A stretch of 64,000 nucleotides of DNA from Gammaproteobacteria bacterium (lineage in GTDB: Bacteria > Pseudomonadota > Gammaproteobacteria > Burkholderiales > Rhodocyclaceae), in assembly GCA_018824085.1 (NCBI GenBank), contig JAHJHI010000028.1, positions 1 to 64,000 of the forward strand, read 5' to 3'. The translations under genes were made by a program, and so were the position numbers. Below, piece after piece: positions 1,980-51,311 of this stretch (the stretch's first letter is position 1; each line of letters starts with the position of its first letter). The notes under the pieces were generated by a model. The model saw only the letters and a program-made list of their open reading frames with translations, did no database searches and was not told the DNA's origin.

Positions 1980-1995
1980 GCTGATCGTTCCTGAT

Positions 1996-2914: not shown

Positions 2915-2991
2915 TGAAATTCTCCTGGTGTATGTCCCGGCGTCGAGCCGGCGGGTTGTTCGGAGGGGCGTTCAGCTTGCCCTCGGAGGTA

Positions 2992-3205: not shown

Positions 3206-3290
3206 ATACACGTACGGTTAAGCGCACTCGTTGCGCGACACACAAACTTGCCGGACACCGCGCCGGCACGATAGAAAAGGTGGTGCAGGG

Positions 3291-3635: not shown

Positions 3636-3656
3636 GCCCCGCCAGGAACTGACCAC

Positions 3657-8841: not shown

Positions 8842-8868
8842 GCCCGCTCAGCATCATTCGCATCGCGA

Positions 8869-32223: not shown

Positions 32224-32245
32224 CTGGAATGGATCCAATATATCA

Positions 32246-32377: not shown

Positions 32378-33265
32378 ATGATGGATCAAGAGGATGGCGA
32401 CCTTACGCGGGCCGCGCTTGCCCGGCTGGACGAGTGTGACGACGTGCGTTTCAAGCGGGTCATGGTGTCGCTGATCGGACATCTTCACGCCTTCGTCCGC
32501 GAGGTCGACCTGACGACCGAGGAGTGGATTGCCGCCATCGATTTCCTGACAGCGACAGGTCAGTGCTGCACCGCCCAGCGCCAGGAATTCATCCTGCTTT
32601 CGGACACGCTCGGTGTCTCGATGCTGGTGGTTACGCAGGATCAGGCGCGTCAGAAGGGCGCCGGCAACGGTGCGGCCGCGGCGACGGAAGCCACGGTGCA
32701 GGGTCCTTACTACTGGGACGGGGCGCGGGACTTTCCGCTTGGCCACGACATTGGTGAAGGCGTGCCGGGTGAGGCGACGTTCTACTCCGGTCGCGTTACC
32801 GATACCGAAGGCGCACCGGTTGTTGGAGCGTTGCTCGATGTCTGGTCCGGTGACGGAGAGGGTGTCTATGACATGCAGATTAATGGGCAAAGCGAAATGC
32901 TGGCCCGCGGGCGGTTCCGCACGGACGATCAGGGGCGTTACTGGTTCTGGTCGATCCGCCCGGGTTACTACCCTGTGCCGATGGACGGGCCGGTGGGTCG
33001 CATGCTCGAACGGATGGGACGTCATCCGAATCGCCCCGGGCACATCCACATGAAAGTCGTTGCCGACGGGTTCGTGCCGGTCACGACCCATCTTTTCGTC
33101 GGGGACAGCCCCTATCTCGATTCCGACGCGGTGTTCGGGGTGCGCGAAAGCCTCGTCGTCGACTTCGAGGAACACGCGCCGGGTGAGGCACCTGATGGAC
33201 GCGTGATGCCTTCGCGTTACTGGTCGGCCCACTATGACTTTCGCCTTGCGCCCTCCCGCGCCTGA
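32378..33265 (+). CDS. Intradiol ring-cleavage dioxygenase (hydroxyquinol/catechol 1,2-type)
   Basis: Non-haem Fe(III) enzyme that opens a catechol between its two hydroxyls to give a muconate. 295 residues. The N-terminal helical dimerisation domain (about 10-105) is that of the catechol/hydroxyquinol subgroup. The Fe ligands are visible as Tyr in 'GDGEGVYD' (about 164), Tyr in 'RPGYYPVP' (about 197/198) and two His in 'RPGHIHMKV' (222, 224). The start at 32378 has a strong AGGAGGAG site. The exact substrate cannot be read from sequence; hydroxyquinol is the closest family guess. First gene of the cluster after the LysR operator. Confidence 0.9.
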   Translation: MMDQEDGDLTRAALARLDECDDVRFKRVMVSLIGHLHAFVREVDLTTEEWIAAIDFLTATGQCCTAQRQEFILLSDTLGVSMLVVTQDQARQKGAGNGAAAATEATVQGPYYWDGARDFPLGHDIGEGVPGEATFYSGRVTDTEGAPVVGALLDVWSGDGEGVYDMQINGQSEMLARGRFRTDDQGRYWFWSIRPGYYPVPMDGPVGRMLERMGRHPNRPGHIHMKVVADGFVPVTTHLFVGDSPYLDSDAVFGVRESLVVDFEEHAPGEAPDGRVMPSRYWSAHYDFRLAPSRA

Positions 33266-33307
33266 CGCAATGAATCCGCAAGCACGGACTCTTTCAAGGA
33301 ACACGAC

Positions 33308-34117
33308 ATGAAAATCGGCAAAGAGGTCATTCCGAGGACCGCAATATCCACGTCGGATGAAAGCTCGATCACGGTTCGCGGAGCCGACCTGTGCTCCGGG
33401 CTCATCGGCCGGATTTCATTTACCGACTACTTCCATCTTCTCGTCACCGGTCGCGCCGCGTCGCCCGCCGTGACAGCGATCCTCGACGCCACGCTGGTAG
33501 CGATCGCCGAACATGGGCTGGTGCCCAGCGTCCAGGCCAGCCGCATGACGCTGGCCGCGGCGCCGGACGCCTTCCAGGGCGCCGTTGCGGCAGGGATTCT
33601 TGGCTGTGGCTCGGTCATTCTCGGTGCTTCGGAAGATGCCGGACGGCTGTTCGTCGAGATTGATGCCCGGGCAACGGACGGTGACATCGATGCGGCGGCG
33701 CTCGCGGTCGTGCGCAGCCATCGCGAGGCCCGCCGACCGATTCCGGGCTACGGACATCCCCTGCACAAGGCGCGCGACCCGCGCGTCGATGCATTGTTTG
33801 CGGTTGCGCGCGATCAGGCCATCAACCTGCGCTTCGTGGACATCGCCGAAGCGGTTGAACGGGTCATTCCCGACGTCGTCGGCAAGGACCTGAAACTGAA
33901 CGTGTCGGCGGCCATCCCGGCACTCCTTCTCGGTGTCGGCTTTCCGCTGGAGGCGCTCAGGGGAGTGCCCATTCTCGCCCGCACGGCGGGGCTGATCGCG
34001 CATCTGACAGAGGAGCTGCAGCGCTCGATCGGCTTTGCGCTGTCCTATCAGGCAACCCGCGATGCCGTGTTCGACGGCAGCCCGGCCCCGGACCCGGCTG
34101 CGGGAAGCGGACGATGA
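33308..34117 (+). CDS. Citryl-CoA lyase-like protein (citrate synthase family)
   Basis: 269 residues, equal to the short citryl-CoA-lyase/citrate-synthase C-terminal type. In that family the enzyme cleaves a citryl-CoA-like thioester to acetyl-CoA and a keto acid. 'IAEHGLVPSVQASR' carries the first active-site His and 'GYGHPLHKARDPRVDAL' the second. The third catalytic residue, the Asp of the 'N-(V/I)-D' motif, appears as Ser in 'LNVSAAIPALLLGVGFP', so activity may differ. It overlaps the CoA-transferase by 4 bases, suggesting that the two act in sequence. Confidence 0.8.
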   Translation: MKIGKEVIPRTAISTSDESSITVRGADLCSGLIGRISFTDYFHLLVTGRAASPAVTAILDATLVAIAEHGLVPSVQASRMTLAAAPDAFQGAVAAGILGCGSVILGASEDAGRLFVEIDARATDGDIDAAALAVVRSHREARRPIPGYGHPLHKARDPRVDALFAVARDQAINLRFVDIAEAVERVIPDVVGKDLKLNVSAAIPALLLGVGFPLEALRGVPILARTAGLIAHLTEELQRSIGFALSYQATRDAVFDGSPAPDPAAGSGR

Positions 34118-35280
34118 GTGCGGTTCTTGACGGCGTCCGGGTGGTCGAGCAGGGGACGTTCATCACGGGCCCCGCGGCGGGGATGATTCTCGGCGACATG
34201 GGGGCCGACGTCATCAAGGTCGAGCAGCCGGGTTCCGGCGATCCGTTCCGTGCCCACGGAGGCGGGCTGTACAGCCCGCATTTCCAGACCTACAACCGCA
34301 ACAAGAGAAGCATCGCGCTGGACACGAAGCAGGCGGCGGATCGGGAAGTGTTCGATGACCTGATCCGCAACGCCGACGTGTATATCCAGAACTTCCGGCC
34401 CGGCGCGGCCGACCGGCTTGGCGCCAGCGAGGAACGTCTGCGGACGCTCAACCCGCGTCTCGTCTATTGTGCGATCAGCGGTTTCGGACAGACCGGCCCG
34501 GCCGCGCAGCGACCGAGCTACGACACTGTCGCGCAGGCCGCCAGCGGCTACCTGAAGCTGCTGGTGAACCCGGCTGACCCGCGCGTCGTCGGGCCTGCCG
34601 TTGCCGACGCAATGACCGGCTACTACGCGGCCTTCGGGATTCTCGGCGCGCTCTATGAGCGCGAGCGTACCGGCAAGGGGCGTGCGGTCGAAGTGTCCAT
34701 GCTCGAGGCGATGTGCCACTTCAATCTGGACGCGTTCACGCACTACCTGTCAGAAGGCGAGGTGATGGGGCCGTTCTCCCGGCCCAGCGTCTCGCAGTCC
34801 TACGTATTGCAGTGCGCCGACGGAAAGTGGATCGCCCTGCACATGTCCTCGCCGGAGAAGTTCTGGCAGGGACTCGCGGCCGCCATGCGCCGCCCCGACA
34901 TCCTGGCCGATCCGCGCTTTTCGTCGCGAGCCGCGCGGATTTCCAGCTACGCGCTTCTGATCGACACCTTGCGTGGCGTGTTCCGTACCGAGCCGCGTGA
35001 CGTGTGGTGCGAGCGCCTGGGTGCGGCGGACGTTCCGCATTCGCCGATGTACGACACGGACGAAGTGCTCGCGGATCCGCAAGTCCGCCACCTCGAACTC
35101 GAAGTGGCCACCACCCATCGCGAAATGGGGCCGTTCAGGACGATCCGCTTTCCGGTGTCTTTTGACCATCAGCGCAGATTCGACGTCACGGCGCCACCCG
35201 TATTGAACGAACACGACCACGAGATACGCCAGGAGATGCAGGCAGGTCCCGGCACCGATGTGAACAAGAGGCAGACATGA
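34114..35280 (+). CDS. CaiB/BaiF family (type III) CoA-transferase
   Basis: Transfers CoA between carboxylic acids. 388 residues. The family N-terminal 'VRVVEQGTFITGPAAGMILG' and 'DMGADVIKVEQPGSGDPFR', the 'RNKRSIALD' turn, and the catalytic Asp in 'PAVADAMTGYYAAFG' (about 169) are all present. Coupled to the citryl-CoA-lyase-like gene by overlap, which suggests that it makes the CoA thioester cleaved by that enzyme. Confidence 0.92.
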   Translation: MSAVLDGVRVVEQGTFITGPAAGMILGDMGADVIKVEQPGSGDPFRAHGGGLYSPHFQTYNRNKRSIALDTKQAADREVFDDLIRNADVYIQNFRPGAADRLGASEERLRTLNPRLVYCAISGFGQTGPAAQRPSYDTVAQAASGYLKLLVNPADPRVVGPAVADAMTGYYAAFGILGALYERERTGKGRAVEVSMLEAMCHFNLDAFTHYLSEGEVMGPFSRPSVSQSYVLQCADGKWIALHMSSPEKFWQGLAAAMRRPDILADPRFSSRAARISSYALLIDTLRGVFRTEPRDVWCERLGAADVPHSPMYDTDEVLADPQVRHLELEVATTHREMGPFRTIRFPVSFDHQRRFDVTAPPVLNEHDHEIRQEMQAGPGTDVNKRQT

Positions 35281-35347
35281 CCCAGCGAAGGTGACACAGG
35301 GGGCCGGATGCGTTCGCGTGACGGCGCCATACAACGGAGGAGGACAC

Positions 35348-36970
35348 ATGAAAAAAAACAGGACAGGACACAACAGGCAGGGCGTGCGTCCCGCAGCAAC
35401 GACGCTCGTGATTTGTGCTGCGGCGCTCTCGGGTGCGGTGGCAACGGATCAAGCCGCTGCATTTGAAATCGACTCCGGGAATCCGGACGTCAAGATGCGC
35501 TGGGACAATACGGTGAAGTACTCCAACGCCTGGCGTCTTGAGGACCGTGCCTCGAAACTCGTCAACAACATCAACCAGGACGACGGAAACCGCAATTTCG
35601 GACGTGGGCTGATTTCGAACCGGGTCGATCTGCTCACCGAATTCGATCTCAGCTACAAGGGGAACTACGGCTTTCGCGTCAGTGGTGCCGGTTGGTACGA
35701 CACGGTCTATCAGCGCTCGAACGACAACAACTCGGCCGCCACCATCAATCAGCTGTCGCGGCCGGCCGACGAATTCGTCGAGGCCACGCGCGACCTGCAC
35801 GGCGGACGCGCGGAGTGGCTGGATGCCTTTGTCTATGCCAACGGCGAACGCGGCAACGTGCGCCTCGGACGTCACTCCATCCTGTATGGCGAGACGCTGT
35901 TTTTCGGCGCCAACGGCATTGCCGCCGCGCAGTCTCCGACCGACGTCGTGAAACTGCTGTCGGTGCCGAACTCCCAGTTCAAGGAAATCATCCTGCCGGT
36001 GAACCAGGTGTCCGGCCAGATCCAGCTGACCGACACGGTTTCCCTGGGCGCCTACTACCAGTTCGAATTCCGCAAGAACCGCATTCCCGGTGTTGGCAGC
36101 TACTTCTCGGGCGCCGACGTGCTGGGCTCGGGTACCGAGCGCTTCCTGTTCTCGCCGGGGTTCGGCGTGCCGCGCATCGAGGACGGGAACGCGCCGAATT
36201 CCGGTCAGGGTGGCGTCCAGGTTCGCTGGCGCCCGGAGGGTCGGGACATCGAGTTCGGCTTCTATGCGGTGCGCTATCACGACAAGAACTTCCAAGTCTA
36301 TCTGCGTCCGGCCAGCGATCTGCAGATGGTGTACCACGAAGGCATCAAGGCCTACGGCGTGAGCTTCAGTACCGAAATTGCCGACTTCAATCTTTCGGGC
36401 GAGTTTTCGGTCCGGCGGAACACGCCGCTGGTCAGCGGTCCGGTCGTCGACCTGGTCGGCAATGCCGACAACGACGACAACGCGCTTTATGCGGTCGGCA
36501 ATTCGGCGCACGCAAATCTGTCCGGCATTTTCTTCCTTAATCGTTCCGCGTTCTGGGACAACGCGTCGCTGGTCGCCGAAATCGCCTGGAACCGGCGCAC
36601 CAGCATCACGAAGAACGCGGCGGAGCTGGATCCCAATACATCGCGCGACGCCTGGGGTCTGCGCTTCGTGTTCGAGCCGCAGTGGTTCCAGGTGGCGCCC
36701 GGCCTCGATCTTTCGGTGCCCGTTGGCGTCGGCTACAACCCCAAGGGCAATTCGTCCGTGGTGCAGCTGTTCAACGGCGGCGTCGAACACGGCGGTGACG
36801 TGTCCATCGGTGTCAAGGGTGTCTACAACCAGGTCTGGCGTGGCGGCATCAACTACACGCACTACGTCGGCAGTGCAGGCAATGCACTGGGCGAGGACGC
36901 CAACCTCACCTTCAAGCAGAACTATGCGGATCGGGATTTCATCTCGCTCTCGCTGCAGCGCACCTTCTAA
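35348..36970 (+). CDS. DUF1302 outer-membrane protein
   Basis: 540 residues. A signal peptide (about 1-38) is followed by 'FEIDSGNPDVKMRWDNTVKY', the usual DUF1302 start, then alternating beta strands ending in an aromatic C-terminus (SLQRTF), the outer-membrane barrel signal. The start at 35348 follows AGGAGGAC. In many Proteobacteria DUF1302 genes occur with DUF1329, YCF48-like and RND genes, as here, and are thought to take up hydrophobic substrates. A channel role is inferred. Confidence 0.88.
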   Translation: MKKNRTGHNRQGVRPAATTLVICAAALSGAVATDQAAAFEIDSGNPDVKMRWDNTVKYSNAWRLEDRASKLVNNINQDDGNRNFGRGLISNRVDLLTEFDLSYKGNYGFRVSGAGWYDTVYQRSNDNNSAATINQLSRPADEFVEATRDLHGGRAEWLDAFVYANGERGNVRLGRHSILYGETLFFGANGIAAAQSPTDVVKLLSVPNSQFKEIILPVNQVSGQIQLTDTVSLGAYYQFEFRKNRIPGVGSYFSGADVLGSGTERFLFSPGFGVPRIEDGNAPNSGQGGVQVRWRPEGRDIEFGFYAVRYHDKNFQVYLRPASDLQMVYHEGIKAYGVSFSTEIADFNLSGEFSVRRNTPLVSGPVVDLVGNADNDDNALYAVGNSAHANLSGIFFLNRSAFWDNASLVAEIAWNRRTSITKNAAELDPNTSRDAWGLRFVFEPQWFQVAPGLDLSVPVGVGYNPKGNSSVVQLFNGGVEHGGDVSIGVKGVYNQVWRGGINYTHYVGSAGNALGEDANLTFKQNYADRDFISLSLQRTF

Positions 36971-36990
36971 GAACGAACGGAGACCCGATC

Positions 36991-38334
36991 ATGATGTCGA
37001 TGAAAACCCTTGCGGCTGCGCTGGTGACCGTCTCGATGACAGGCTTGGCCTGCGCCGCGGTCACGGCAGACGAGGCCGCGAAACTGAAGACGGAACTGAC
37101 GCCGCTGGGCGCCGAGAAGGCCGGCAACAAGGACGGCAGCATTCCCGCCTGGACCGGCGGTTACACGAAGGTGCCGGCCGGCTACAAGAGCGGGCAGCCG
37201 CGCCCCGATCCCTTCGCGGACGAGAAGCCGCTGCTCACCATCACGGCGGCAAACATGGCCCAGCATGCCGACAGGCTGGACGAGGGGCAGTTGCACCTGC
37301 TGAAGAAATTCCCCGACTACAGGATCAACGTCTACCCGACCCATCGCAGCGCTGCCGCACCTCAGTGGGTGTACGACGAAACGTTCAAGAACGCGACGCG
37401 CGCGAAGATGGAGGGCGACGCGGTGGTCGGCGCCTACGGCGGGGTTCCGTTCCCGATTCCCAGGACGGGCGCGGAACTCATCTGGAATCACTCGCTGCGC
37501 GTGCGCCCGGCGGCATACCGCCATCCGTTCAACACCTATACGGTCGATTCGAGCGGCAATGCGTCGCTTGCATCGGGCGCGGTCAATGAGGTGTCGCTGC
37601 CGTACTACAAGCAGGGCGGTTCGCCGGAGCAGATGAAGCACGGCGCCTACTTCCAGAACGTCCAGTCGGTGGTCGCGCCGTCCGTGCGTGCGGGCGAATT
37701 GCTGATGTATTACGACCAGCTCGACAACAACCGTCCGGCCTGGCAGTACCTGGTGGGCCAGCGCCGTGTCCGGCGCGCGCCGACGATCTGTTGCGACACG
37801 CCGAATTTCGTCAACTCGGGTGTCGATTTCTTCGACCAGGTATTCGTCTGGTTCGGTCCTTCGACCAATTACGACTGGAAGATCGTCGGCAAGAAGGAGA
37901 TGTACATCCCCTACAACAACAACCGGCTGATCATGTCGAAGGACAAGGATGCGCTGAAGAAGGATTTCATCAATCCGGACCTGGTGCGCTGGGAGCTGCA
38001 CCGCGTGTGGGAGGTCGAGGGAACGGTACGCGCCGGCAAGCGTGACGTGCGCCCGAAGCGCAAACTCTATCTCGACGAGGACACCTATATCGCGGTGCTC
38101 GGCAATACGTGGGATGCGCAGGGCACGCTGTGGCACACCTCGATAGGTTTCCCGTGGATCCAGTACGAACTGCCGGCCGTCGGGCTGGAGGTGTGGACCA
38201 CGATGGATTTCATCAAGGGCACCTACACCTTCTCGCCGATCGGCGATCAGTCGGCGCAGATCCAGATCATGGCCGAGCCGTGGCCCGACAGCTACTACAC
38301 GCCGGAAGCGCTGTCGCGCAAGGGTGTGCGCTGA
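36991..38334 (+). CDS. DUF1329 periplasmic/outer-membrane lipoprotein-like protein
   Basis: 447 residues. A signal peptide covers about residues 1-23. The mature protein has the DUF1329 features 'LTPLGAEKAGNKDGSIPAWT' and, near the middle, 'RRVRRAPTICCDTPN'. A LolA/LolB-like fold is reported for this family. It always travels with DUF1302 genes and probably helps move a hydrophobic ligand across the periplasm. Confidence 0.88.
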   Translation: MMSMKTLAAALVTVSMTGLACAAVTADEAAKLKTELTPLGAEKAGNKDGSIPAWTGGYTKVPAGYKSGQPRPDPFADEKPLLTITAANMAQHADRLDEGQLHLLKKFPDYRINVYPTHRSAAAPQWVYDETFKNATRAKMEGDAVVGAYGGVPFPIPRTGAELIWNHSLRVRPAAYRHPFNTYTVDSSGNASLASGAVNEVSLPYYKQGGSPEQMKHGAYFQNVQSVVAPSVRAGELLMYYDQLDNNRPAWQYLVGQRRVRRAPTICCDTPNFVNSGVDFFDQVFVWFGPSTNYDWKIVGKKEMYIPYNNNRLIMSKDKDALKKDFINPDLVRWELHRVWEVEGTVRAGKRDVRPKRKLYLDEDTYIAVLGNTWDAQGTLWHTSIGFPWIQYELPAVGLEVWTTMDFIKGTYTFSPIGDQSAQIQIMAEPWPDSYYTPEALSRKGVR

Positions 38335-38352
38335 GCGCTGCTCGGTCACCGG

Positions 38353-39447
38353 ATGGCACTCATGCTGACAATGCACCCACATATCCTGCGCCGCAGCGCG
38401 CTCGCCGTGCTGCTCGCGTTCGGCCTGGCCGGCGCCGGGGCGGCGATCGATGCCGGTTCGACGGCCCTTGATCCGCTCGATCCGCTGCTGCGTCCGGCGG
38501 CGAGCGGGCAACACATCGAATCTTCCGTACTGATCGGGGTGACGCGCGCCGGCAGCCGGCTGGTGGCGGTCGGCGAAAGCGGCATCGTGCTCATCAGCGA
38601 CGATGACGGCATGGGCTGGCGGCAGGCGGCGGTGCCGGTCAGCGTCACGCTGACTGCCGTCATGTTCGCAACGCCGGAGAAGGGGTGGGCGGTCGGGCAC
38701 AGTGGCGTCGTGCTGGCCACCGGTGACGGCGGCCTGACCTGGACGGCCCAGCTCGACGGAACCCGGATGGCGACGCTGGCCGTGGAGCCGGACGATCAGG
38801 CGGCAGATGCACCGCCTGCCGTGCCGAACGCCGGCGATCCGCTGCTCGACGTGCTCTTTCTCGATGAGCGCGAGGGCTACGCGACCGGTGCGTTCGGCAT
38901 GTTCCTGCATACGACGGATGGAGGCGCGAACTGGACACGCGTACCCCGTCGCCTGCCCAACCCGGATGGCAATCACCTGTATGGCATCCGCGCGCTTGGT
39001 GATCACCTCTATGTCGTCGGCGAACGTGGTGCGGTGTATGTGTCACAGGACCGCGGCGCGACCTTCACCGCGCTGACGACACCCTATGAAGGCAGTTTCT
39101 TCGGCGTTGCCGGCACCGGCGCCGGCACGGTCGTGGTGTATGGCCTGCAGGGGCGGGCCTTTGCGTCGGGTGATCACGGACGGACCTGGCAGGACGCCGG
39201 CGCAGGCGGCGCTGGCGCGTGGACCGGCGCAACGGTGTTGCCGGACGGAAGGATGGTGCTGGTCGGGCAGGCCGGTGACGTGCAATTGCAGACGGCCGGT
39301 GGCGGCAATTTCATTGCCATGGCGGGCAAGCATCCGCCGCTGTCCGGCGTGGCCGTCGGGAGCAACGGCAATCTCGTCGCCGTCGGTCCGCGCGGCATCC
39401 ACACAATCAAGCTCGCAGATGCAATGACAGGGAGTGCCACACAGTGA
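38353..39447 (+). CDS. YCF48/BNR-repeat periplasmic protein
   Basis: 364 residues with a signal sequence near the N-terminus (to about residue 31). Repeated beta-propeller blades carry the sialidase/BNR-type Asp box, e.g. 'ISDDDGMGW', 'TGDGGLTWT', 'HTTDGGANWT', 'SQDRGATFT' and 'SGDHGRTWQ'. This is the YCF48/Hcf136-like class that accompanies DUF1302-DUF1329-RND sets. Likely an accessory of the transporter; no enzymatic role can be read. Confidence 0.86.
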   Translation: MALMLTMHPHILRRSALAVLLAFGLAGAGAAIDAGSTALDPLDPLLRPAASGQHIESSVLIGVTRAGSRLVAVGESGIVLISDDDGMGWRQAAVPVSVTLTAVMFATPEKGWAVGHSGVVLATGDGGLTWTAQLDGTRMATLAVEPDDQAADAPPAVPNAGDPLLDVLFLDEREGYATGAFGMFLHTTDGGANWTRVPRRLPNPDGNHLYGIRALGDHLYVVGERGAVYVSQDRGATFTALTTPYEGSFFGVAGTGAGTVVVYGLQGRAFASGDHGRTWQDAGAGGAGAWTGATVLPDGRMVLVGQAGDVQLQTAGGGNFIAMAGKHPPLSGVAVGSNGNLVAVGPRGIHTIKLADAMTGSATQ

Positions 39448-41870: not shown

Positions 41871-41900
41871 TACCCCGAGCCCGAAGGAGTGACAAGAACA

Positions 41901-42947: not shown

Positions 42948-44002
42948 GCTATTTGCTGAATACCTGGTATGCCGCCGGCTGGAGCGACGCCATCGGCGCG
43001 TCATTGACGCCGATCACGATGCTTGATCAGGCGCTGGTGCTGTTCCGCGACAGCGCGGGGCGGGTGCGCGTGATGAGCGACCGCTGCCCGCATCGCTTCG
43101 CGCCGCTGCATCTCGGCACGTTGTGCGGGGACCGCGTGCAGTGCGCTTACCACGGCCTGCAGTTCGACGGTGAAGGGCGCTGCGTGCATAACCCGCACGG
43201 CGACGGCGCAATTCCGAAGGCCGCGCTGCTGCGCACCTTCCCGGTGATCGAGATGCACACGCTGGTCTGGGTGTGGATGGGCGAGCCGGCACGCGCCGAC
43301 CCCGCATTGATTCCCGACTTCGCCTTCCTGACCGATCCGGACCTCGTCACCAACAAGGGCTATCTGCACGGCAGCGGCCATTACGAACTGTACAGCGACA
43401 ACATCATGGATCTTGGTCACGCCGAGTTCCTGCATCCCGGTCTTGGCGCGCCGGCGTTCACCAAGGGCAAGCGCGACATTTACCAGAAGGGCAACACGGT
43501 CTGGTCCAACGTCGGCAGCCTGAATGATTTCCTGTCGCCGCTGCACGCCAGCATCAAGCAACTGGAGGGGCAGCGGCTCGACTGGTGGGTGGATGTGCGG
43601 TGGGATCCGCCGGCGTCGATGGAACTGACCCTCTATGTCGACGAAGTCGGCGGCAGCCGCGAGAGCGCGAAATGGCTGGATCGCGGCTGTCACGTCATGA
43701 CACCGGAAACCGCCACGTCCACGCACTACTTCTGGGCCAACTGTCGCAACTACCGGCGCGACGATCAGGCGTTGACGCAGGCGATCCAGGCGGGCTTCGA
43801 AGCCGCGTTCGAGAACGAGGACAAGCCGATGATCGCAGCGCAAGCCGCGATGATGGGCGATGACGACTTCTGGTCGCTGAACCCGGTATTGCTGGCGGGC
43901 GACGCGGGCGGCGTGCGGGCGCGTCGCCTGCTGGCAAAGCTGATCGCGGACGAGGCGGCGGGACGCGAACCGACCGAACAGGCGATCGCGCAGCACGTCT
44001 GA
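42944..44002 (+). CDS. Rieske oxygenase 2 (VanA-type)
   Basis: Terminal oxygenase component, 352 residues with a GTG start overlapping the previous stop. Rieske ligands in 'DRCPHRFAPLHLG' and 'VQCAYHGLQFD'; mononuclear Fe site in 'DNIMDLGHAEFLH'. It is closest in type to vanillate O-demethylase oxygenases, with a variable C-terminal half. It is clearly different from its two paralogues in the cluster, so these are not recent copies. Confidence 0.92.
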   Translation: MSYLLNTWYAAGWSDAIGASLTPITMLDQALVLFRDSAGRVRVMSDRCPHRFAPLHLGTLCGDRVQCAYHGLQFDGEGRCVHNPHGDGAIPKAALLRTFPVIEMHTLVWVWMGEPARADPALIPDFAFLTDPDLVTNKGYLHGSGHYELYSDNIMDLGHAEFLHPGLGAPAFTKGKRDIYQKGNTVWSNVGSLNDFLSPLHASIKQLEGQRLDWWVDVRWDPPASMELTLYVDEVGGSRESAKWLDRGCHVMTPETATSTHYFWANCRNYRRDDQALTQAIQAGFEAAFENEDKPMIAAQAAMMGDDDFWSLNPVLLAGDAGGVRARRLLAKLIADEAAGREPTEQAIAQHV

Positions 44003-44046
44003 ACACCCACATCCCGCGCCCCGGGCGCATCAAGAAGGAGAACACC

Positions 44047-44646
44047 GTGAGTCTTGAAAACTGGAAACCAAGTGAATTTGACCAGGGCCGCGCGCGCGAC
44101 ATCGCCGCGCAGCGGCGCGCGGCAAACAAGGTGAAGATGTTGCACCACCATGCCTTCCGTTGCCGCAGCGCGGAAGAAACGCGCGCCTTCTACGAGGGCG
44201 TGCTTGGCTTTCCTCTCGTCGCGGCCTGCATCGAGCCGACGGATCCGCTGACCAACGAGCCAAAACCGTACATGCATCTGTACTTCGAGCTGGCGGACGG
44301 CAGCGCGCTGGCGTTCTTCGACTACCCGGCGCACTTCACGCCGGAGGACTTCCCGGAGGTGGACCAGTTCGGCCATCACATCGCGATGGAAGTCACCGGC
44401 GGCGACGCGACGATAGACGCCTACAAGAAGAAGCTGCAAGACGCGGGTGTCGAGGTGCTGGAGATCGACCACGGCTATTGCCGCTCGATCTATTTCTACG
44501 ACCCGAACGGCATGCGCGTTGAATTCGCGACCAATGTGAGCGTGACCGAGCATTTCTTCGCCGACAAGTACCAATCCGTCGACGACGACATGGCGCGCTG
44601 GAAAGAGGTCCGTACGCAGCATTTCGGCGCTGCGGACAAACCTTGA
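44047..44646 (+). CDS. VOC-superfamily protein (glyoxalase/extradiol dioxygenase fold)
   Basis: 199 residues with a GTG start behind AAGGAG. One pair of beta-alpha-beta-beta-beta modules. Possible metal ligands are His in 'KMLHHHAFRCRSAEETRAFY', His in 'FGHHIAMEV', and Glu in 'GMRVEFATN', the His-His-Glu triad of type I extradiol dioxygenases and glyoxalases. It might cleave a ring, isomerise or hydrolyse an intermediate; the fold alone does not tell. It lies between Rieske genes, and its stop overlaps the hydrolase gene. Confidence 0.85.
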   Translation: MSLENWKPSEFDQGRARDIAAQRRAANKVKMLHHHAFRCRSAEETRAFYEGVLGFPLVAACIEPTDPLTNEPKPYMHLYFELADGSALAFFDYPAHFTPEDFPEVDQFGHHIAMEVTGGDATIDAYKKKLQDAGVEVLEIDHGYCRSIYFYDPNGMRVEFATNVSVTEHFFADKYQSVDDDMARWKEVRTQHFGAADKP

Positions 44647-45542
44647 GTGCGGATGCGTCAATGACGATGGTCGCATTCGAGCGAGGCTTCGAACGCCACA
44701 CTTCAAAGTCGGAGGATGGCTGCCGCATCGCGTGGTGGTCCGGCGGCAACCGGGCGGGACGACCGGTCGTGCTGCTGCACGGCTTCGCGCTCGACCACTC
44801 CGTGTGGGCGCCGCTGTGCGCGCAGCCCTTGCTGCTCGACAGTTGTCACGTGGTCGTGCCTGACCTGCGCGGTCATGGCGCGTCGGGCCGCATGGCGACG
44901 CCGGATGGCTACACCGACGGTGCCGCCTGGGCGGCCGATCTCGACGTGGTCATCCGCGACGCCGGTCTGGTTCGTCCAACCGTGGTCGCATGGTCTTTCG
45001 GCGGACGCAGCGTGCTCGATCACGTGCGCCGCTACGGCAGCGATCACCTGCACGGCATCTTGTTCGTGGCCGCTGCAAGTCTCGCGCACTTCGCGTCGGC
45101 AGGGCCCGTTCACTCATTGCTGGAGGCGCTGTGCGCCGAGCAGGCGATGGAGGTGGCTGCCGCGACCGAGCGCTTCATCATCGAGGTGCTCGGCGTGCCG
45201 CGCGAAGCCGGCGACGTTGCCGTGCTGACGGCTGCCGCCCTGCGGTGCGAGGTCGAGCACAGGCGCTGGATGCGCCGGCGCGCGCTGGACTACGACGGAC
45301 TGATCGCCGGGCTCGACCTGCCGCTGATGTGGGTGAATGGCGAGCACGACGGCATCGTGCTGCCGTCCCGCGCGCAGGTGTTCCGTGAGCTGCTGCCCGA
45401 TGCCCGCATTTCGATCCACGCCGGCGCGCGTCACGCTCCCTTCCGCGACGACCCTGCGCGTTTTGCACGCGAACTGCTTGATTTCATCACCGATCCGCCG
45501 CCTTGCAGGCGCGCCGCTGCCGACCTGCATCCGGATCACTAG
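44643..45542 (+). CDS. Alpha/beta hydrolase
   Basis: 299 residues from a TTG overlapping the previous stop; an ATG at 44661 is the alternative. The oxyanion-hole motif is 'VVLLHGFALDHSVW', the nucleophile Ser is in 'VVAWSFGGRSV' (A-W-S-F-G rather than the usual G-x-S-x-G), the acid is Asp in 'VNGEHDGIVL' and the His is in 'AGARHAPFRD'. In aromatic pathways such enzymes hydrolyse ring-cleavage products, lactones or esters. Confidence 0.88.
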   Translation: MSADASMTMVAFERGFERHTSKSEDGCRIAWWSGGNRAGRPVVLLHGFALDHSVWAPLCAQPLLLDSCHVVVPDLRGHGASGRMATPDGYTDGAAWAADLDVVIRDAGLVRPTVVAWSFGGRSVLDHVRRYGSDHLHGILFVAAASLAHFASAGPVHSLLEALCAEQAMEVAAATERFIIEVLGVPREAGDVAVLTAAALRCEVEHRRWMRRRALDYDGLIAGLDLPLMWVNGEHDGIVLPSRAQVFRELLPDARISIHAGARHAPFRDDPARFARELLDFITDPPPCRRAAADLHPDH

Positions 45543-45555
45543 AGGAGAAGAACAC

Positions 45556-46608
45556 ATGTATCCGCTTCCCGAGGGCTGCTTTGCGCCCCGCAACCAGTGG
45601 TACATCGCCGCCTGGGCAGACGAGGTCAGGCGCGAGCCGATGGAGCGCTGGATCCTGAACGAGCCGGTGGCCTTCTACCGCACCGAAGCCGGTCAGGCCG
45701 TCGCGCTCGAAGGTCGTTGCCCGCACCGCCACTTTCCGCTCGGCAAGAGCCGGCTGGTCGGTGACAACATTGAATGCATGTACCACGGCATCACCTTCGG
45801 ACCGACCGGGGACTGTGTGCGCATTCCGTCGCAGGGCATGATTCCCGCCAGCTGCAAGGTGAAGTCCTTCCCGCTGGTCGAGCGCTGGAAGTGGCTGTGG
45901 ATCTGGATGGGCGACCCGGCGCTGGCGGATGAAGCGCTGATTCCGGACCACCATGAGATCGGTCTGACCGATCCCGACTTCACGGTTGAAGGCGGTACCT
46001 ACCATTCGGTGCCGGGCCGCTACATGCTGATGCACGACAACCTGTTCGACCTGACGCATCTGGGCTTCCTGCACCAGACCAGCATCGGTGCCGGCGACTT
46101 CGGCAGCGTGGACGAAAAGCGCGACAACGGGGAGAACTGGATCAGCAGCGAGCGCGAATTCCTGGATATCGATTGTCCACCGCTGTTCTCGAAAGTGTTC
46201 GACTATGCCGGAAAGATCGACCGGGCATTCGGCATGAAGCTCCATCTGCCATGCCTGCATGCCGGCTATGACTTCTTCCACAAGTCGCGCACGGGCAGCG
46301 ACGAGCCCGGTGCGCCGCTCGGCAAGATCCGCGTCTATCACGCGATAACGCCCGCCACCACAAACACCGCGCATTACTTCTTCGCGGTCGGCCGTACGTT
46401 CAAGCGTGATGATGCCGAGTTCGGGCAGGCCATGCTGGCCGGCTTGAATGAAGTGGTGCTGGAGGATCTGGTCGCCACGCGCGAAATCGAGGGCATGCTG
46501 ACCACGCTCGGTGGCGCACCGGCCGAAGTGCTGCTGAAGGCCGACGCCACCTGCGTGCGCGGCCGCCGTTTGTTCGAAGCGCTGATCCGCAAGGAACAGA
46601 CCGCATGA
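45556..46608 (+). CDS. Rieske oxygenase 3 (VanA-type)
   Basis: Terminal oxygenase component, 350 residues, ATG after GAGGAGAAG. Rieske ligands in 'GRCPHRHFPLGKS' and 'IECMYHGITF'; Fe site in 'HDNLFDLTHLGFLH'. Directly followed, with a 4-base overlap, by the only reductase of the cluster, so this one most resembles a vanAB-like pair. Confidence 0.93.
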   Translation: MYPLPEGCFAPRNQWYIAAWADEVRREPMERWILNEPVAFYRTEAGQAVALEGRCPHRHFPLGKSRLVGDNIECMYHGITFGPTGDCVRIPSQGMIPASCKVKSFPLVERWKWLWIWMGDPALADEALIPDHHEIGLTDPDFTVEGGTYHSVPGRYMLMHDNLFDLTHLGFLHQTSIGAGDFGSVDEKRDNGENWISSEREFLDIDCPPLFSKVFDYAGKIDRAFGMKLHLPCLHAGYDFFHKSRTGSDEPGAPLGKIRVYHAITPATTNTAHYFFAVGRTFKRDDAEFGQAMLAGLNEVVLEDLVATREIEGMLTTLGGAPAEVLLKADATCVRGRRLFEALIRKEQTA

Positions 46609-47573
46609 GCACGGCGACCGCGCTCATTCCGGTCCGCCTTGCCCGCCGGAACGTCGAGGCCGACGGCATCGCCAGCTTTGAACTCGTCAGCGCGGACGGG
46701 CGCGACCTGCCGGCCTTCACCGCCGGTTCGCACATAGACGTCGTGCTCGGCGAGGGCCTGATCCGCCAGTACTCGCTGTGCAATCCGCCGTCCGGATCCG
46801 GGAGCTATCTGCTCGGCGTGCTGCTCGACCCCGCATCGCGCGGTGGCTCGAGGGCCATGCACGCGCTGAAGGAAGGTGATGTGATTCAGGTCAGCGCGCC
46901 ACGCAACCACTTCGGGCTGGCGCCGGGCGCCCGGCGCAGCCTGCTGCTTGCCGGCGGCATCGGTGTCACGCCCATCCTGTGCATGGCTGAACAGCTTGCA
47001 ACAGAGGGCGCTGATTTCGAGATGCACTACTGTGCGCGCTCGATCAGCCGCACCGCCTTTGTCAGCCGCATCCGCGAGGCCGCTTTCGCCCGCCGTGCGC
47101 ACCTGCACTTCGACGATGGCGATGCGAGCCAGGCTTTCGCCATGGACGCACTGCTGGCGCAGCCGCAGCCCGGGACGCATCTGTACGTGTGCGGCCCGCG
47201 CGGCTTCATGGATGCGGTGCTCGACTGCGCGCGCCGCCACGGCTGGCCGGAAACGCAGATCCACTACGAGTTCTTCGCCGGTGCGGCCGTGGCGACGGAG
47301 GGCGACGCCGGATTCACGGTGAAGCTCGCGCGTTCGGGCACGCTTGTTCCCGTCGCATCCGGGCAGACCATCGCGCAGGCGCTGACGGCGGCTGGCGTGC
47401 CGCTTGCGATGTCCTGCGAGCAGGGTGTCTGCGGGACATGCATGACGCGCGTGCTCGACGGTACGCCGGACCATCGCGACATGTTCATGACGCCGGACGA
47501 GCAGGCTCGCAATGACCAGATCACGCCGTGCTGCTCGCGCTCGAAGAGCCCGCTGCTCGTGCTTGATCTCTGA
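46605..47573 (+). CDS. VanB-type reductase (FMN, NAD and [2Fe-2S])
   Basis: Electron-transfer partner for the Rieske oxygenases, 322 residues. Flavin-binding domain at about 1-100 ('RQYSLCNPP'), NAD-binding domain at about 105-220 ('LLLAGGIGVTPILCMAEQL', 'YVCGPRGFMDAVL') and a C-terminal plant-type ferredoxin domain at about 235-322 with cysteines in 'SCEQGVCGTCMTRV' and 'ITPCCSRS'. A single reductase serving three oxygenases is likely. Overlaps the preceding oxygenase gene by 4 bases. Confidence 0.94.
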   Translation: MSTATALIPVRLARRNVEADGIASFELVSADGRDLPAFTAGSHIDVVLGEGLIRQYSLCNPPSGSGSYLLGVLLDPASRGGSRAMHALKEGDVIQVSAPRNHFGLAPGARRSLLLAGGIGVTPILCMAEQLATEGADFEMHYCARSISRTAFVSRIREAAFARRAHLHFDDGDASQAFAMDALLAQPQPGTHLYVCGPRGFMDAVLDCARRHGWPETQIHYEFFAGAAVATEGDAGFTVKLARSGTLVPVASGQTIAQALTAAGVPLAMSCEQGVCGTCMTRVLDGTPDHRDMFMTPDEQARNDQITPCCSRSKSPLLVLDL

Positions 47574-47587
47574 CACCGCCTCACTCC

Positions 47588-49264
47588 ATGAAGCCACCCA
47601 TGACAGACCCGACGACCGCCATGCGCGAGCTGGCCCCGACCGAAGTTTTCGCGCTGTATCCGCCACACGCGGATACGCTGGCATCCTTGCTTGCGTCGCG
47701 CGCGCAGGCGCTGCCCGATGCCGAAGCCGTGCTGTTCCAGTCGCGCTCCTGGCGCTATGGCATGCTGCAGCGCGCTGCGGAAGCCGGCGCCCGTCTTCTC
47801 GCGGCGCGGGGCGTCCGCCCGGGTGATCCGGTCGCACACATCGCGGCGAACAGCGACGCGGCCATCGTCCTGTTTCTTTCGCTTGCGCGTCTTGGGGCGG
47901 TGTTCGTGCCGCTGAATCCCGCGCTGACCGACGACGAGCTGCTCTACCAGCTCGACCATTCCGGGGCTGTCGCCGTGTTCACGCCCGAGGCGCTCGTCGA
48001 TCGGGTGAGCGCGGTGCAGGCGCGCTGTCGGCAGCGGGCGTCCATCCTTGCGCTGGAAGCACTGGGCAGCGACGCACCCGATGCCGGAGCGGCTCTGGCG
48101 TGCATCCTGTCGGAATTGCCGGCCGATGCACCTGACGCGCCGCCGCTGCCGTCGCCGGACACGCCTGCCGTCGTGATCTACACGTCCGGCACCACCGGCT
48201 TCCCGAAGGGTGTCGTGCACAGCCAGCGCAACGTTGTCTGGGCGGCCGAGGTGTTCGTTGCACGCCTGCGCCTGCAGCCGGGAGAGCGGTTGCTGACGGT
48301 ATTCCCGTTGTTCCACGTGAATGCGCTGTTCTATTCGTTTGCCGGCGCGCTCGCCTGCGGCGGTACCTTCATCACCGCGGCGAGGTTCAGCGCTTCGACG
48401 TTCTGGCAGACCGCGGCGGATACCGGCGCCACGCAGCTCAACATCCTGGCCGCACTCGGCGGCATCCTGGGCTTGCGTCCGCGCACCGAATTCAATCCTG
48501 TCCACCGCATACGCAAGATCTACGGCGGCCCGATCAGTGCCGCAATGTTCAAGCTGTTCCAGCAGGAATTCGGCGTGCCGCTGCTGATCGAGGGATACGG
48601 CATGTCGGAGATCCCGGCGGCCTGCAGCAATCCCTACGACGGTCCGCACAAGCTGGGCAGCATCGGCACCGCCGGTCGGCACCCGCGCGTGGACGCCGCA
48701 CGCGTCCGTCTCCGGGTGGTCGACGACGACGGTCTGGATGTGCGGGCCGGCGAGGTGGGCGAACTGCTGGTGCAGACGCCGATGATGTTCATCGGCTATC
48801 TGAATGATCCGGCGCAGACTGCGGCCGCCTTCCGCGACGACTGGTTCCTGACCGGCGATCTGGTTCGAGCCGATGCCGACGGCTACCTCTACTTTGTCGC
48901 CCGCAAGAAGGACATCATCCGCAAGCGAGGCGAGAACATATCCGGCGCCGAGCTGGACATGCTGCTCGGCCAGCACCCGGATGTCGCCGAGGCGGCGACC
49001 ATCGCCGTGCCGTCGGCTCTGGGAGACGACGACATTCTCGCCGTGCTCGTCCCGCGCGCGGGCAGCGCGCCGACCCACGAGGCCGTGCTGGAATGGTGTC
49101 GCGGACACATGGCGGCGATCAAGGTGCCGCGCTATCTGGTCTTTGCGCCTTCCCTTCCGAAGACGCCGACCCAGCGTGTCGCCAAGCATCTGCTGAAAAA
49201 GGATGCGGAGCTGATCTCCCGGGCACGTGACATGGACGCGGCGCCAGCCGCGGAAGGGCGCTGA
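47588..49264 (+). CDS. Acyl-CoA synthetase (AMP-forming)
   Basis: Activates a carboxylic acid to its CoA thioester through an acyl-adenylate. 558 residues. AMP-binding P-loop 'VIYTSGTTGFPKGV' at about 196-209, 'EGYGMSEIPAAC' further on, and the C-terminal hinge 'YFVARKKDIIRKRGENISG'. The C-terminal 'LPKTPTQRVAKHLLK' carries the catalytic Lys. The substrate is not evident. It sits between the reductase and LeuCD genes. Confidence 0.93.
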   Translation: MKPPMTDPTTAMRELAPTEVFALYPPHADTLASLLASRAQALPDAEAVLFQSRSWRYGMLQRAAEAGARLLAARGVRPGDPVAHIAANSDAAIVLFLSLARLGAVFVPLNPALTDDELLYQLDHSGAVAVFTPEALVDRVSAVQARCRQRASILALEALGSDAPDAGAALACILSELPADAPDAPPLPSPDTPAVVIYTSGTTGFPKGVVHSQRNVVWAAEVFVARLRLQPGERLLTVFPLFHVNALFYSFAGALACGGTFITAARFSASTFWQTAADTGATQLNILAALGGILGLRPRTEFNPVHRIRKIYGGPISAAMFKLFQQEFGVPLLIEGYGMSEIPAACSNPYDGPHKLGSIGTAGRHPRVDAARVRLRVVDDDGLDVRAGEVGELLVQTPMMFIGYLNDPAQTAAAFRDDWFLTGDLVRADADGYLYFVARKKDIIRKRGENISGAELDMLLGQHPDVAEAATIAVPSALGDDDILAVLVPRAGSAPTHEAVLEWCRGHMAAIKVPRYLVFAPSLPKTPTQRVAKHLLKKDAELISRARDMDAAPAAEGR

Positions 49265-50671
49265 ATGCCGCCGCTGACGCTGTTTGAAAAGCTGTGGCAG
49301 CGCCATGTCGTGGCGAGCCGAAGTGAAGCGGAATCCCTTCTGTACATCGACCGGCATCTGGTCTACGAGGTCACCAGCCCGCAGGCATTCGAGGGCTTGC
49401 GCCTGTCGGGCCGCCGCCCGTGGCGCTGCGACACGGTACTGGCCACCGCCGACCACAACGTGCCCACGACGTCGCACACCGGTGATATCGCGGACCCGCT
49501 GTCACGCGTGCAGGTCGAACAACTGAGCCGCAACTGCCGCGAGTTCGGCATCCGGATCTTTCCGCTCGGGGACCGGCGCCAGGGCATCGTGCATGTGGTC
49601 GGCCCGGAGCAGGGCGCCACCCTGCCGGGCATGACAGTCGTCGCGGGCGATTCGCACACCAGTACGCATGGTGCGTTCGCCGCGCTGGCCTTCGGCGTCG
49701 GCACCTCCGAGGTCGAGCATGTGCTGGCCACGCAGTGCCTCGCGATGGAGCGGATGAAGACACTCTTCATCGACGTTGGCGGCGCGCTGGCGCCCGGTGT
49801 CACTGCCAAGGACCTGATCCTCTCGGTGATCGGCGAGCTCGGTGCGTCCGGCGGCAATGGTTACGCGATCGAGTTTGGCGGCGGTGCCGTACGCTCGCTG
49901 TCGATGGAGGGACGCATGACGCTCTGCAATATGGCGATCGAAGCGGGTGCGCGGGTTGCGCTCGTCGCCGTGGATGACCTGACGCTGGCGTATCTCGAGG
50001 GGCGGCCGTTCGCCCCGGCTGGCGCGCAATGGGAGGCGGCCTGCAACTACTGGCGCACCCTGCACAGCGACGACGGTGCCGTGTTCGATGCCCGTCTCGT
50101 AGCGGATGCGGGCGCCGTGCGACCCATGGTGACCTGGGGTACCTCGCCGGCAATGGTGGTCGCGGTTGACGGGTGCGTGCCCGATCCGCGCAGCGAGCAC
50201 GATCCGGTGCGGCGCACCCAGATGGAACGGGCGCTCGATTACATGGCGCTCGAAGCGGGCACACCCATCACGGCGATCCGCCCCGACCGCATCTTCATCG
50301 GTTCCTGCACCAACGCGAGAATCGAGGACCTGCGTGCCGCGGCGGACGTCGTGCGTGGCGCACGGGTGGCTGCTTCGATCCGCCAGGCGCTGGTCGTTCC
50401 CGGCTCGGGGCTGGTGAAGGCTCAGGCGGAGGCGGAGGGACTGGACCGGATATTCGTCGATGCCGGCTTCGAGTGGCGCGAACCGGGCTGCTCGATGTGT
50501 CTTGGCATGAACGACGACAGGCTGCTGCCAGGCGAGCGATGCGCATCGACGTCGAACCGCAACTTCGAGGGGCGTCAGGGCGCGGGCGGCCGGACACATC
50601 TGGTGAGTCCGGCCATGGCGGCGGCCGCTGCGCTGGCCGGTCATTTCGTTGACGTGGCCCGGGGCGTCTGA
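49265..50671 (+). CDS. Aconitase-family hydro-lyase large subunit (LeuC-type)
   Basis: Large subunit of an isopropylmalate-dehydratase-type isomerase, 468 residues. The three [4Fe-4S] ligands are at about residues 348 ('IGSCTNARI'), 409 and 412 ('GCSMCLGM'). The start '[11 protein letters not shown]' and '[20 protein letters not shown]' are typical of LeuC. No leuA or leuB lies nearby; instead it follows a CoA ligase in a catabolic operon. So it is more likely a pathway-specific paralogue acting on a 2-hydroxy-tricarboxylate or similar. It begins right after the preceding stop. Confidence 0.9.
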
Positions 50672-50672
50672 A

Positions 50673-51311
50673 ATGCGCGCCTTCACGTATCTGGACAGCG
50701 AAGTCGTTCCGCTGGACCGTGCCGATGTCGATACCGACGCGATCATTCCGAAACAGTTCATGAAGTCGATCGCACGCACCGGCTTCGGCGCGAACCTGTT
50801 CGACGCCTGGCGTTATCGGGATCCGGGCCATCCCGGCAAGCCCGAAGGCGACCGGCAGCCGGATCCGGATTTCGTGCTGAACCAGCCGCGATACCGCGAC
50901 GCGCACGTTCTGCTGGCGCGCGCCAACTTCGGTTGCGGATCGAGCCGCGAGCACGCGCTCTGGGCGCTGGCGGACCATGGCATCCGGGCCATCATTGCGC
51001 CGAGCTTCGCGGACATTTTCCACGGCAACTGCCTGAAGAACGGCGTGTTGCCCGTCGTGCTGCCGGCCGGGCTCGTTGATCGCATGTTCGCCGACGTGTT
51101 TTCCGGGCCGGGCTATCGCGTGATCGTCGATCTCGACGCACAGCTGGTCCGCCTTCCTGACGGTACAAGCGCGGCATTCGAGATCGACGCCGTCCGCAAG
51201 CACTGCCTCCTGAACGGTCTGGACGACATCTCGGTCACGCTTGACCAGGCCGATGACATACGGCGATACGAAATCATGCGCAAGACGCTGGAGCCCTGGC
51301 TGTTCGGCTGA
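50673..51311 (+). CDS. Aconitase-family hydro-lyase small subunit (LeuD-type)
   Basis: Swivelling small subunit partner of the LeuC-type protein, 212 residues. Typical '[15 protein letters not shown]', '[15 protein letters not shown]' and '[19 protein letters not shown]'. The start at 50673 lies one base after the leuC-type stop. Last gene of the cluster; no clear terminator follows. Confidence 0.92.

Follow-up and report, generated by a model that had tools for sequence, protein, structure and literature searches.

A possible lower pathway for hydroxyquinol-type compounds with a citrate-synthase-fold protein, a CoA-transferase and a LeuCD-type pair in a Rhodocyclaceae genome

Cleavage of hydroxyquinol yields maleylacetate, for which the usual next enzyme is maleylacetate reductase. 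In the gentisate pathway, a branch via maleylpyruvate hydrolase and maleate hydratase is known for Pseudomonas alcaligenes. Degradation of 2,6-xylenol reportedly proceeds via a methylated hydroxyhydroquinone and citraconate (Ewers et al. 1989); no genes are known to us for this route, which is not known to involve CoA steps. (R)-Citramalyl-CoA lyase is a relative of HMG-CoA lyase (HMGL). For (R)-citramalate degradation, the activities EC 2.8.3.20 and EC 4.1.3.46 are listed (PMC8307300). Here, a block of catabolic genes is compared with these systems. It lies at positions 32378-51311 of a 64,000-nucleotide stretch (the window) of a Gammaproteobacteria bacterium of the family Rhodocyclaceae (assembly GCA_018824085.1, contig JAHJHI010000028.1, positions 1 to 64,000 of the forward strand).

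Analysis of the block and of related loci allows for a widespread, undescribed lower pathway, in which a CaiB-type CoA-transferase and a repurposed citrate-synthase-fold enzyme lacking the family Asp would cleave maleylacetate-type acids, in a CoA-dependent retro-Claisen reaction, to acetyl-CoA and (alkyl)maleate, and a LeuCD-type enzyme would hydrate the maleate; the probability of this reading is put at about one in three. In the open-licence literature, no paper linking the genes of the block, or pairing hydroxyquinol 1,2-dioxygenase with citryl-CoA lyase, was found.

Gene block and its hydroxyquinol-type dioxygenase

All genes of the block are located on the plus strand, nearly end to end, with a LysR gene divergent from them. 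The gene families named in the initial annotation were all confirmed by domain matches in one strand-consistent block, although that annotation left unmentioned the four-gene cassette at 35291-41870 and the divergent LysR gene. The window genome comprises 4.28 Mb in 56 contigs and is rated 100% complete; its nearest named relative by the gene of the protein named citryl-CoA lyase is Methyloversatilis universalis EHg5 (84%), in a scan from which records of the window genome itself were possibly excluded. The genes, in block order and with the abbreviations used below, are as follows.

31306..32238, minus strand: LysR regulator, divergent from the operon (Pfam HTH_1, LysR_substrate)
32378..33265, plus strand: hydroxyquinol 1,2-dioxygenase-like intradiol enzyme, HQD (Pfam Dioxygenase_N/C; ATG at 32378 after GGAGGAG)
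33308..34117, plus strand: predicted citrate-synthase-fold protein named citryl-CoA lyase, CCL (passes the NCBIfam subfamily model NF004868, 315 bits against a cut-off of 193)
34114..35280, plus strand: CaiB/BaiF family III CoA-transferase, CaiB (PF02515, 362 bits)
35291..36970, plus strand: DUF1302 outer-membrane protein, AmeA-like (PF06980)
36991..38334, plus strand: DUF1329 periplasmic protein, AmeB-like (PF07044)
38353..39447, plus strand: YCF48/BNR protein, AmeC-like (PF14870)
39444..41870, plus strand: MMPL/HAE3 RND transporter, AmeD-like (PF03176; TIGR00921 165 bits, below its cut-off)
41889..42947, plus strand: Rieske oxygenase, RO1 (Rieske and VanA_C)
42944..44002, plus strand: Rieske oxygenase, RO2 (Rieske and VanA_C)
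44047..44646, plus strand: VOC protein, probable single-domain type I extradiol (para-diol) dioxygenase (invariant residues; match to 9u42)
44643..45542, plus strand: alpha/beta hydrolase (PF00561)
45556..46608, plus strand: Rieske oxygenase RO3, probable O-demethylase (VanA_C and Rieske; ATG at 45556)
46605..47573, plus strand: ferredoxin-type reductase serving the Rieske oxygenases, RED (Fer2, NAD_binding_1; follows RO3 in loci L159, L044 and L086)
47588..49264, plus strand: AMP-binding acyl-CoA ligase (PF00501)
49265..50671, plus strand: LeuC-type large subunit, probable (alkyl)maleate hydratase (TIGR00170, 729 bits, over cut-off)
50673..51311, plus strand: LeuD-type small subunit (TIGR00171, 247 bits, over cut-off; ATG at 50673)

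The best matches of HQD in the PDB are 8r2x, a 6-chlorohydroxyquinol dioxygenase (2e-70), 3n9t (PnpC) and 1tmx, a hydroxyquinol dioxygenase (3.5e-65). The top five solved chains (2e-70 to 9.2e-60) comprise three hydroxyquinol-type enzymes, PnpC and one enzyme named only intradiol; the first catechol enzyme appears at 4.3e-33, about 27 orders of magnitude behind. By these relatives, the intradiol enzyme is of the hydroxyquinol type, not of the protocatechuate type, and substituted hydroxyquinols are as possible as hydroxyquinol itself for its predicted substrate. HQD is the sole PF00775 match in the window genome. Protocatechuate-type cleavage to carboxymuconate was rejected because the closest solved relatives are hydroxyquinol-type, and the methoxylated aromatic polyacid opened to a carboxylated muconate, put forward in the initial annotation, is not supported on the same grounds.

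Relatives of maleylacetate reductase were searched for in eight genomes with an iron-dependent dehydrogenase of Advenella (L065), which we take to be this reductase from its motifs and from HQD neighbours in other genomes, and which no NCBIfam model names over its cut-off. At 1e-20, neither the window genome nor that of M. universalis gave a match. Identities were 60% in Acidovorax, 62% in Caenimonas and 50% for a partial match in P. tuberum, and only 28-36% in the remaining genomes. A second HQD (47-48%), elsewhere in the genome, adjoins the matching gene of Acidovorax (G307) and that of P. tuberum (G302).

The citrate-synthase-fold protein and its recurring neighbours

CCL is predicted to have the citrate-synthase fold: its AlphaFold model (pLDDT 85) has 6hxp as its top Foldseek match (E 2.6e-12, TMq 0.75, rmsd 9.8 over 258 columns). 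CCL was aligned with 91 relatives that had been collected by their similarity to the window protein. In all 92 rows, Ser (Ser200 of CCL) takes the place of the Asp that 6hxp and ATP-citrate lyase carry in the NVD motif. The position of a His of 6hxp is occupied by Ile in 88 rows and Val in four, Pro instead of Arg follows the conserved His in 92/92, and Gln76, Arg79 and His153 are newly invariant throughout. The Asp of the NVD motif presumably corresponds to Asp1026 of ATP-citrate lyase. The human enzyme requires Asp1026, mutation of which traps citryl-CoA (PMC10115795). Since the Asp is replaced in all rows and other conserved positions are changed, the classical lyase reaction is doubtful; CCL is probably not a citryl-CoA lyase, and the label should not serve as a functional call. 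The citryl-CoA lyase of the initial annotation, acting on a citrate-like acid, was rejected on account of this Ser. A second lyase-like gene, 37% identical, was found beside a CoA ligase in L018 (1493-2230); it encodes NAT where citryl-CoA lyases have NVD.

The same replacement bears on a reading close to the initial model, in which the lyase acts last: hydrolysis would give maleate or citraconate, LeuCD would form (R)-malate or (R)-citramalate, CaiB would make the CoA ester, and CCL would release acetyl-CoA with glyoxylate or pyruvate. The fold and the name of CCL agree with this sequence of steps, the Ser in 92/92 rows does not, and with the neighbourhoods described below we consider it rather doubtful.

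When one genome collection was scanned with CCL as the query, 291 stretches proved to encode a relative; the 80 best loci, mostly from Burkholderiales with some Gammaproteobacteria, were kept for counts. Flanks of 10 kb were fetched, which 15 loci do not reach in full, so neighbour counts are lower bounds; the LeuC of M. universalis, for example, falls beyond the fetched flank. CaiB (at least 60% identity) is present in 78/80 loci, with a median gap of 55.5 bp, and LysR (at least 45%) in 76/80; LysR, CCL and CaiB are a recurring unit. HQD (at least 50%) was found in 41/80 loci, at a median distance of 38 bp from CCL and accompanied by CaiB in 40 of the 41. A TTT-type binding protein is encoded in 50/80 loci, VOC (at least 40%) in nine, LeuC (at least 55%) in six, LeuD in five and RO3 in two. 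A maleylacetate-reductase-like gene occurs in six loci, one of which also contains HQD. For LeuC, the six loci compare with 0.6 expected by chance, a hand estimate assuming about two LeuC copies per genome of 5-6 Mb.

M. universalis EHg5 carries the same cluster, with LysR, HQD, CCL, CaiB and the cassette in one piece (L007) and relatives of VOC (85%), hydrolase (75%), RO3 (85%), RED (70%), ligase (78%), LeuC (81%) and LeuD (70%) in another (L159). RO1 and RO2 were not found in L159, and because both queries matched the RO3 gene only, these two genes look like additions in the window strain.

The search for co-occurrence of the intradiol, lyase-like, CaiB and LeuCD genes, suggested in the initial annotation, was positive in four organisms. 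In Pseudomonas cyclaminis (L075), the order is LysR-HQD-CCL-CaiB-TIM barrel-LeuC-LeuD; on a Burkholderia glumae plasmid (L101, 8104-15633), it is LysR-HQD-CCL-FAD hydroxylase-CaiB-LeuC-LeuD-TIM barrel, the last being hydroxypyruvate-isomerase-like. The L101 operon is compact with insertion sequences on both sides, and the same CCL match is present on nine B. glumae plasmids. Cupriavidus necator (L103, 8968-18711) contains CCL, a CoA ligase, an intradiol dioxygenase (PF00775), two regulators, CaiB, an HMGL-type gene, LeuC and LeuD; C. metallidurans (L109, unannotated and read by tblastn) has the same set, except that no HMGL-type gene was found. Annotation was also lacking for three plasmid regions. 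In these two species, CaiB is only 33-38% and the intradiol enzyme 28-32% identical to those of the window, and in C. necator a CoA ligase replaces CaiB next to CCL and the intradiol enzyme. The ligase of the block is 46.5-47.7% identical to the ligases beside the lyase-like genes in L103, L109 and L018.

In C. necator, LeuCD stands with this distant CaiB and the HMGL-type gene, and CCL with the CoA ligase and the intradiol dioxygenase. Relatives of this CaiB/HMGL pair (59-61%) also occur in P. cyclaminis and Stutzerimonas KOS6, separately from CCL, which suggests that hydroxy-acid cleavage in these three organisms may belong to an enzyme other than CCL and speaks against placing the lyase last. 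For an HMGL-type citramalyl-CoA lyase in the window genome, the candidate is a single 41% match within an open frame of 440 aa.

VOC was found without HQD in seven loci (L008, L016, L044, L045, L055, L074 and L086). Duganella (L008) has CCL-CaiB-VOC-hydrolase-FAD hydroxylase-LeuC-LeuD-DUF1302-DUF1329, and Stutzerimonas KOS6 (L086) has hydrolase-VOC-RO3-RED-formaldehyde dehydrogenase-outer-membrane protein-LysR-CCL-CaiB-LeuC-LeuD; in Solimonas (L044) and relatives in Alcanivorax, VOC also stands beside CCL-CaiB. No HQD relative at 1e-20 was detected in the Stutzerimonas genome or in the genome of L045, and the Duganella and Solimonas genomes each contain one elsewhere, at 32-33%. P. tuberum (L009) has CCL-CaiB-VOC-hydrolase-LeuC-LeuD with a 44% HQD relative on the opposite strand. 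In the whole-genome search, this relative (8044-8865, beside LysR) matches as two overlapping pieces, which suggests a broken frame.

These arrangements bear on whether the block combines two adjoining pathways for different substrates, LysR-HQD-CCL-CaiB on the one hand and VOC-hydrolase-RO3-RED-ligase-LeuCD, a homogentisate/gentisate-like route to maleate, on the other. The seven VOC loci without HQD agree with such a division, as do 39 of the 41 HQD loci, which have CCL, CaiB and transporters but lack both VOC and LeuC within the flanks retrieved. However, CCL-CaiB is common to both kinds of loci, as in L008 and L009, where CCL-CaiB-VOC-hydrolase occurs with LeuC-LeuD, and in a CCL tree of 91 rows, several forks of which are weak, the rows linked to VOC and those linked to LeuCD each fall in separate places. 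Because of this sharing and scatter, CCL-CaiB seems to serve the VOC route too, and the VOC and LeuCD links to CCL seem to have formed more than once. Two independent pathways are considered unlikely.

Two further families recur near these genes. A cobalamin-independent methionine synthase family protein is encoded beside HQD-CCL-CaiB or CCL-CaiB in L029, L031, L033, L040, L054, L081-L083 and L100 (Meth_synt_2 in L100), and an amidohydrolase of one close family (62-72% identical to that of L107) near the CCL-CaiB unit in L043, L062, L064, L072, L073 and L107.

LeuCD, accessory genes and the proposed pathway

The window genome contains two LeuC-type genes and one aconitase gene. The LeuC gene outside the block is followed by leuD and then by leuB, the latter over its NCBIfam cut-off, so the initial annotation's own caveat, that the LeuCD-type genes of the block might be the only isopropylmalate dehydratase of the genome, does not apply. 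In a LeuC tree of 31 rows (seven duplicate rows dropped), where the leuB link was checked for the copy of the window genome only, this leuB-linked copy falls in a 12-row group (support 90/87) that excludes the LeuC of the block; the latter clusters, at 100/98, with the LeuC of M. universalis, that of Duganella and one of Advenella sp. FME57, the second copy of that strain. A spare isopropylmalate dehydratase lying downstream by happenstance, to which the scores over the TIGR00170 and TIGR00171 cut-offs would be suited, is highly improbable in view of the leuCD and leuB elsewhere, the position of LeuC in the tree and the recurrence of LeuCD beside CCL at several separate points of the CCL tree.

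The Advenella pair, in a gene region at 1243-7634 and 7756-8889 of L179, is located beside a gentisate dioxygenase relative (TIGR02272 257 bits, cut-off 442); its other side is occupied by genes for 3-hydroxybenzoate 6-monooxygenase (over its cut-off), an FAH-type hydrolase, LysR and a TTT-type protein. This context implies conversion of maleylpyruvate to maleate and malate, with the Advenella pair as a candidate maleate hydratase. Because this sister LeuC, the nearest relative in the tree outside clusters like that of the window, belongs to a gentisate operon, from which hydration of maleate would be expected, LeuCD of the block is more likely a dedicated paralogue acting on maleate or alkylmaleate than an enzyme for the citrate-like acid of the initial annotation. 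For isopropylmalate dehydratase, conversion of citramalate to citraconate has been reported (PMC5882075), and the LeuC of a methanogen is described as active as a maleate hydratase (PMC8307300).

A scan of 300 genomes of the order, which served the VOC alignment, gave a match at 1e-30 in seven, including the window's own. H34, H111, H142, Y149 and E159 are invariant in the 24 rows of the alignment; H34, H111 and E159 are presumably the 2-His-1-Glu ligands, and H142 and Y149 the catalysts. The extradiol signature fits 20 of the 24 rows, including that of the window, and in the background set matches 11 of 5313 ORFs, nine of them VOC-family rows. Ligands, catalysts and signature, so assigned, all agree with a type I extradiol dioxygenase. 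Both the profile search (E 3.8e-51) and Foldseek place 9u42 first, an Acinetobacter protein with the entry title homogentisate 1,2-dioxygenase and the chain name glyoxalase; the literature search turned up no paper on it. The next folds, glyoxalases and fosfomycin enzymes, are six orders of magnitude behind. VOC is therefore listed as a probable single-domain type I extradiol (para-diol) dioxygenase, the product of which would be a maleyl ketone that the hydrolase could split to maleate. Hydrolase relatives (48-49%) come after VOC in L008 and L009.

RO3 is a probable O-demethylase of the VanA/DdmC type by its domains and its best PDB match, dicamba O-demethylase (3.4e-45, query from 45559); RO1 and RO2 were assessed by domains alone. 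In Stutzerimonas (L086), the RO3-RED relatives adjoin a gene for glutathione-independent formaldehyde dehydrogenase (over the NCBIfam cut-off), which is what O-demethylation would need.

The membrane cassette inside the block, encoding DUF1302, DUF1329, YCF48 and RND proteins, has the composition of AmeABCD, with the HAE3 model TIGR00921 below its cut-off and COG4447 assigned via matches to the YCF48 model. AmeABCD is the RND system of monoterpene-degrading Castellaniella (PMC6394551), and cassettes like it have been considered in connection with aromatic regulons in Betaproteobacteria (PMC6449761). The cassette suggests a hydrophobic or toxic substrate.

Taken jointly, the products of the block could transport hydrophobic methoxylated (hydroxy)hydroquinone-type compounds, O-demethylate them, cleave the ring and pass the fragments through a lower pathway that ends in maleate, a tentative model held at somewhat less than even odds. 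RO3 with RED, perhaps with RO1 and RO2, would remove methoxy groups as formaldehyde or hydroxylate the ring. By family evidence, ring opening would then fall to HQD, giving a maleylacetate-type keto acid, or to the VOC para-diol dioxygenase, after which the alpha/beta hydrolase would yield the same type of acid or maleate directly. CaiB or the CoA ligase would make the CoA ester of the beta-keto acid, and CCL would split this ester, releasing (alkyl)maleate and acetyl-CoA. On balance, CCL is placed directly after ring cleavage, in view of the 39 HQD loci lacking VOC and LeuC, the ligase in place of CaiB in C. necator and the HMGL-type gene linked to LeuCD there; the reaction judged most likely for it is a retro-Claisen cleavage in which a 3-oxoacyl-CoA gives an acid and acetyl-CoA. 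As phylogeny and gene context suggest, the LeuCD paralogue would hydrate (alkyl)maleate to (R)-malate or (R)-citramalate, and the pathway would replace the maleylacetate reductase/beta-ketoadipate route. Of the unusual aromatic route proposed in the initial annotation, the single catabolic block joining demethylase, intradiol dioxygenase, LeuCD and CoA-linked end steps is retained, while the substrate class and the citryl-CoA-lyase step are probably wrong.

A number of observations weigh against the maleylacetate-cleaving pathway. Its weakest step is the retro-Claisen cleavage, which remains putative for enzymes of the CCL subfamily; the Asp is essential in ATP-citrate lyase, but whether its role is chemical or allosteric is debated (PMC10115795). 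No LeuC of at least 55% was found in the fetched flanks of 74/80 loci, which counts equally against the lyase acting last, and among the 41 HQD loci LeuC is present only in that of P. cyclaminis. Any HQD match is absent from 35/80 loci. In 21/80, CaiB accompanies CCL without HQD, VOC, LeuC or a reductase-like gene, and a TTT-type binding protein is found in 16 of these and an MFS transporter in four; such CaiB-CCL-transporter loci fit the uptake of a ready-made acid, which in the lyase-last order would be a hydroxy acid. That order is also favoured in the window genome by the lack of a close HMGL and of a tartrate/D-malate dehydrogenase over the TIGR02089 cut-off, which leaves (R)-malate without an assigned fate in the preferred pathway. 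The argument from HMGL is not universal: no such gene was found in C. metallidurans L109, and the best relative is only 41-42% identical in four of six genomes searched, including the window's. Rhizobiales plasmid loci (L100, L104, L107) pair CCL with a LigB-type extradiol dioxygenase, which maleylacetate does not explain, and the presence of both HQD and VOC in one cluster is left unexplained by the model. In these plasmid loci, the LigB-type enzyme, another ring-cleavage partner of the CCL unit, has a small partner protein and an IclR regulator, with TRAP transporters in L100 and L107.

Outside the block, the window encodes the flagellar hook-associated protein FlgK upstream (24083-25462), immediately after the block a large protein (52533-54938) that carries metallophosphatase, concanavalin-like and RTX calcium-binding repeats, and a protein with a PEP-CTERM motif (54968-55672). 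The Rfam and tRNA scans were both empty.

Comparison with known systems

The annotation 'citryl-CoA lyase' probably misdirects pathway prediction, and 291 stretches encode some relative of CCL. If the proposed pathway is correct, it would provide an acetyl-CoA-conserving, reductase-free end route for hydroxyquinol-type compounds as an alternative to maleylacetate reductase and beta-ketoadipate, extend the citrate synthase fold to a new chemistry, and supply genes by which maleate/citraconate is hydrated during the breakdown of aromatics.

The citryl-CoA lyase of Hydrogenobacter, 6hxp, has the same predicted fold as CCL at about 32% identity; CCL differs in the replacements of Asp by Ser, His by Ile and Arg by Pro, and in its aromatic gene context. 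The AmeABCD system of Castellaniella has the same DUF1302-DUF1329-COG4447-HAE3 RND order as the cassette of the block, but is located in a monoterpene cluster and not an aromatic one. The degradation of (R)-citramalate likewise transfers CoA to a hydroxy acid and releases acetyl-CoA, whereas the lyase of the block is a citrate-synthase-fold protein without the family Asp. The 2,6-xylenol route reportedly also has hydroxyquinol-type ring fission followed by a citraconase, in another organism. The hydratase branch of the gentisate pathway, represented by the Advenella candidate, has a LeuCD-type enzyme of the same clade after ring cleavage and C-C hydrolysis; unlike in this branch, the ring-cleavage enzymes of the block are HQD and VOC, with CoA steps added. 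The hydroxyquinol/maleylacetate/beta-ketoadipate pathway shares with the block hydroxyquinol-type intradiol cleavage to a maleylacetate-type acid, but it continues with a reductase, 3-oxoadipate CoA-transferase and thiolase, while the block, for which no reductase relative was found, has CaiB, the citrate-synthase-fold protein and LeuCD.

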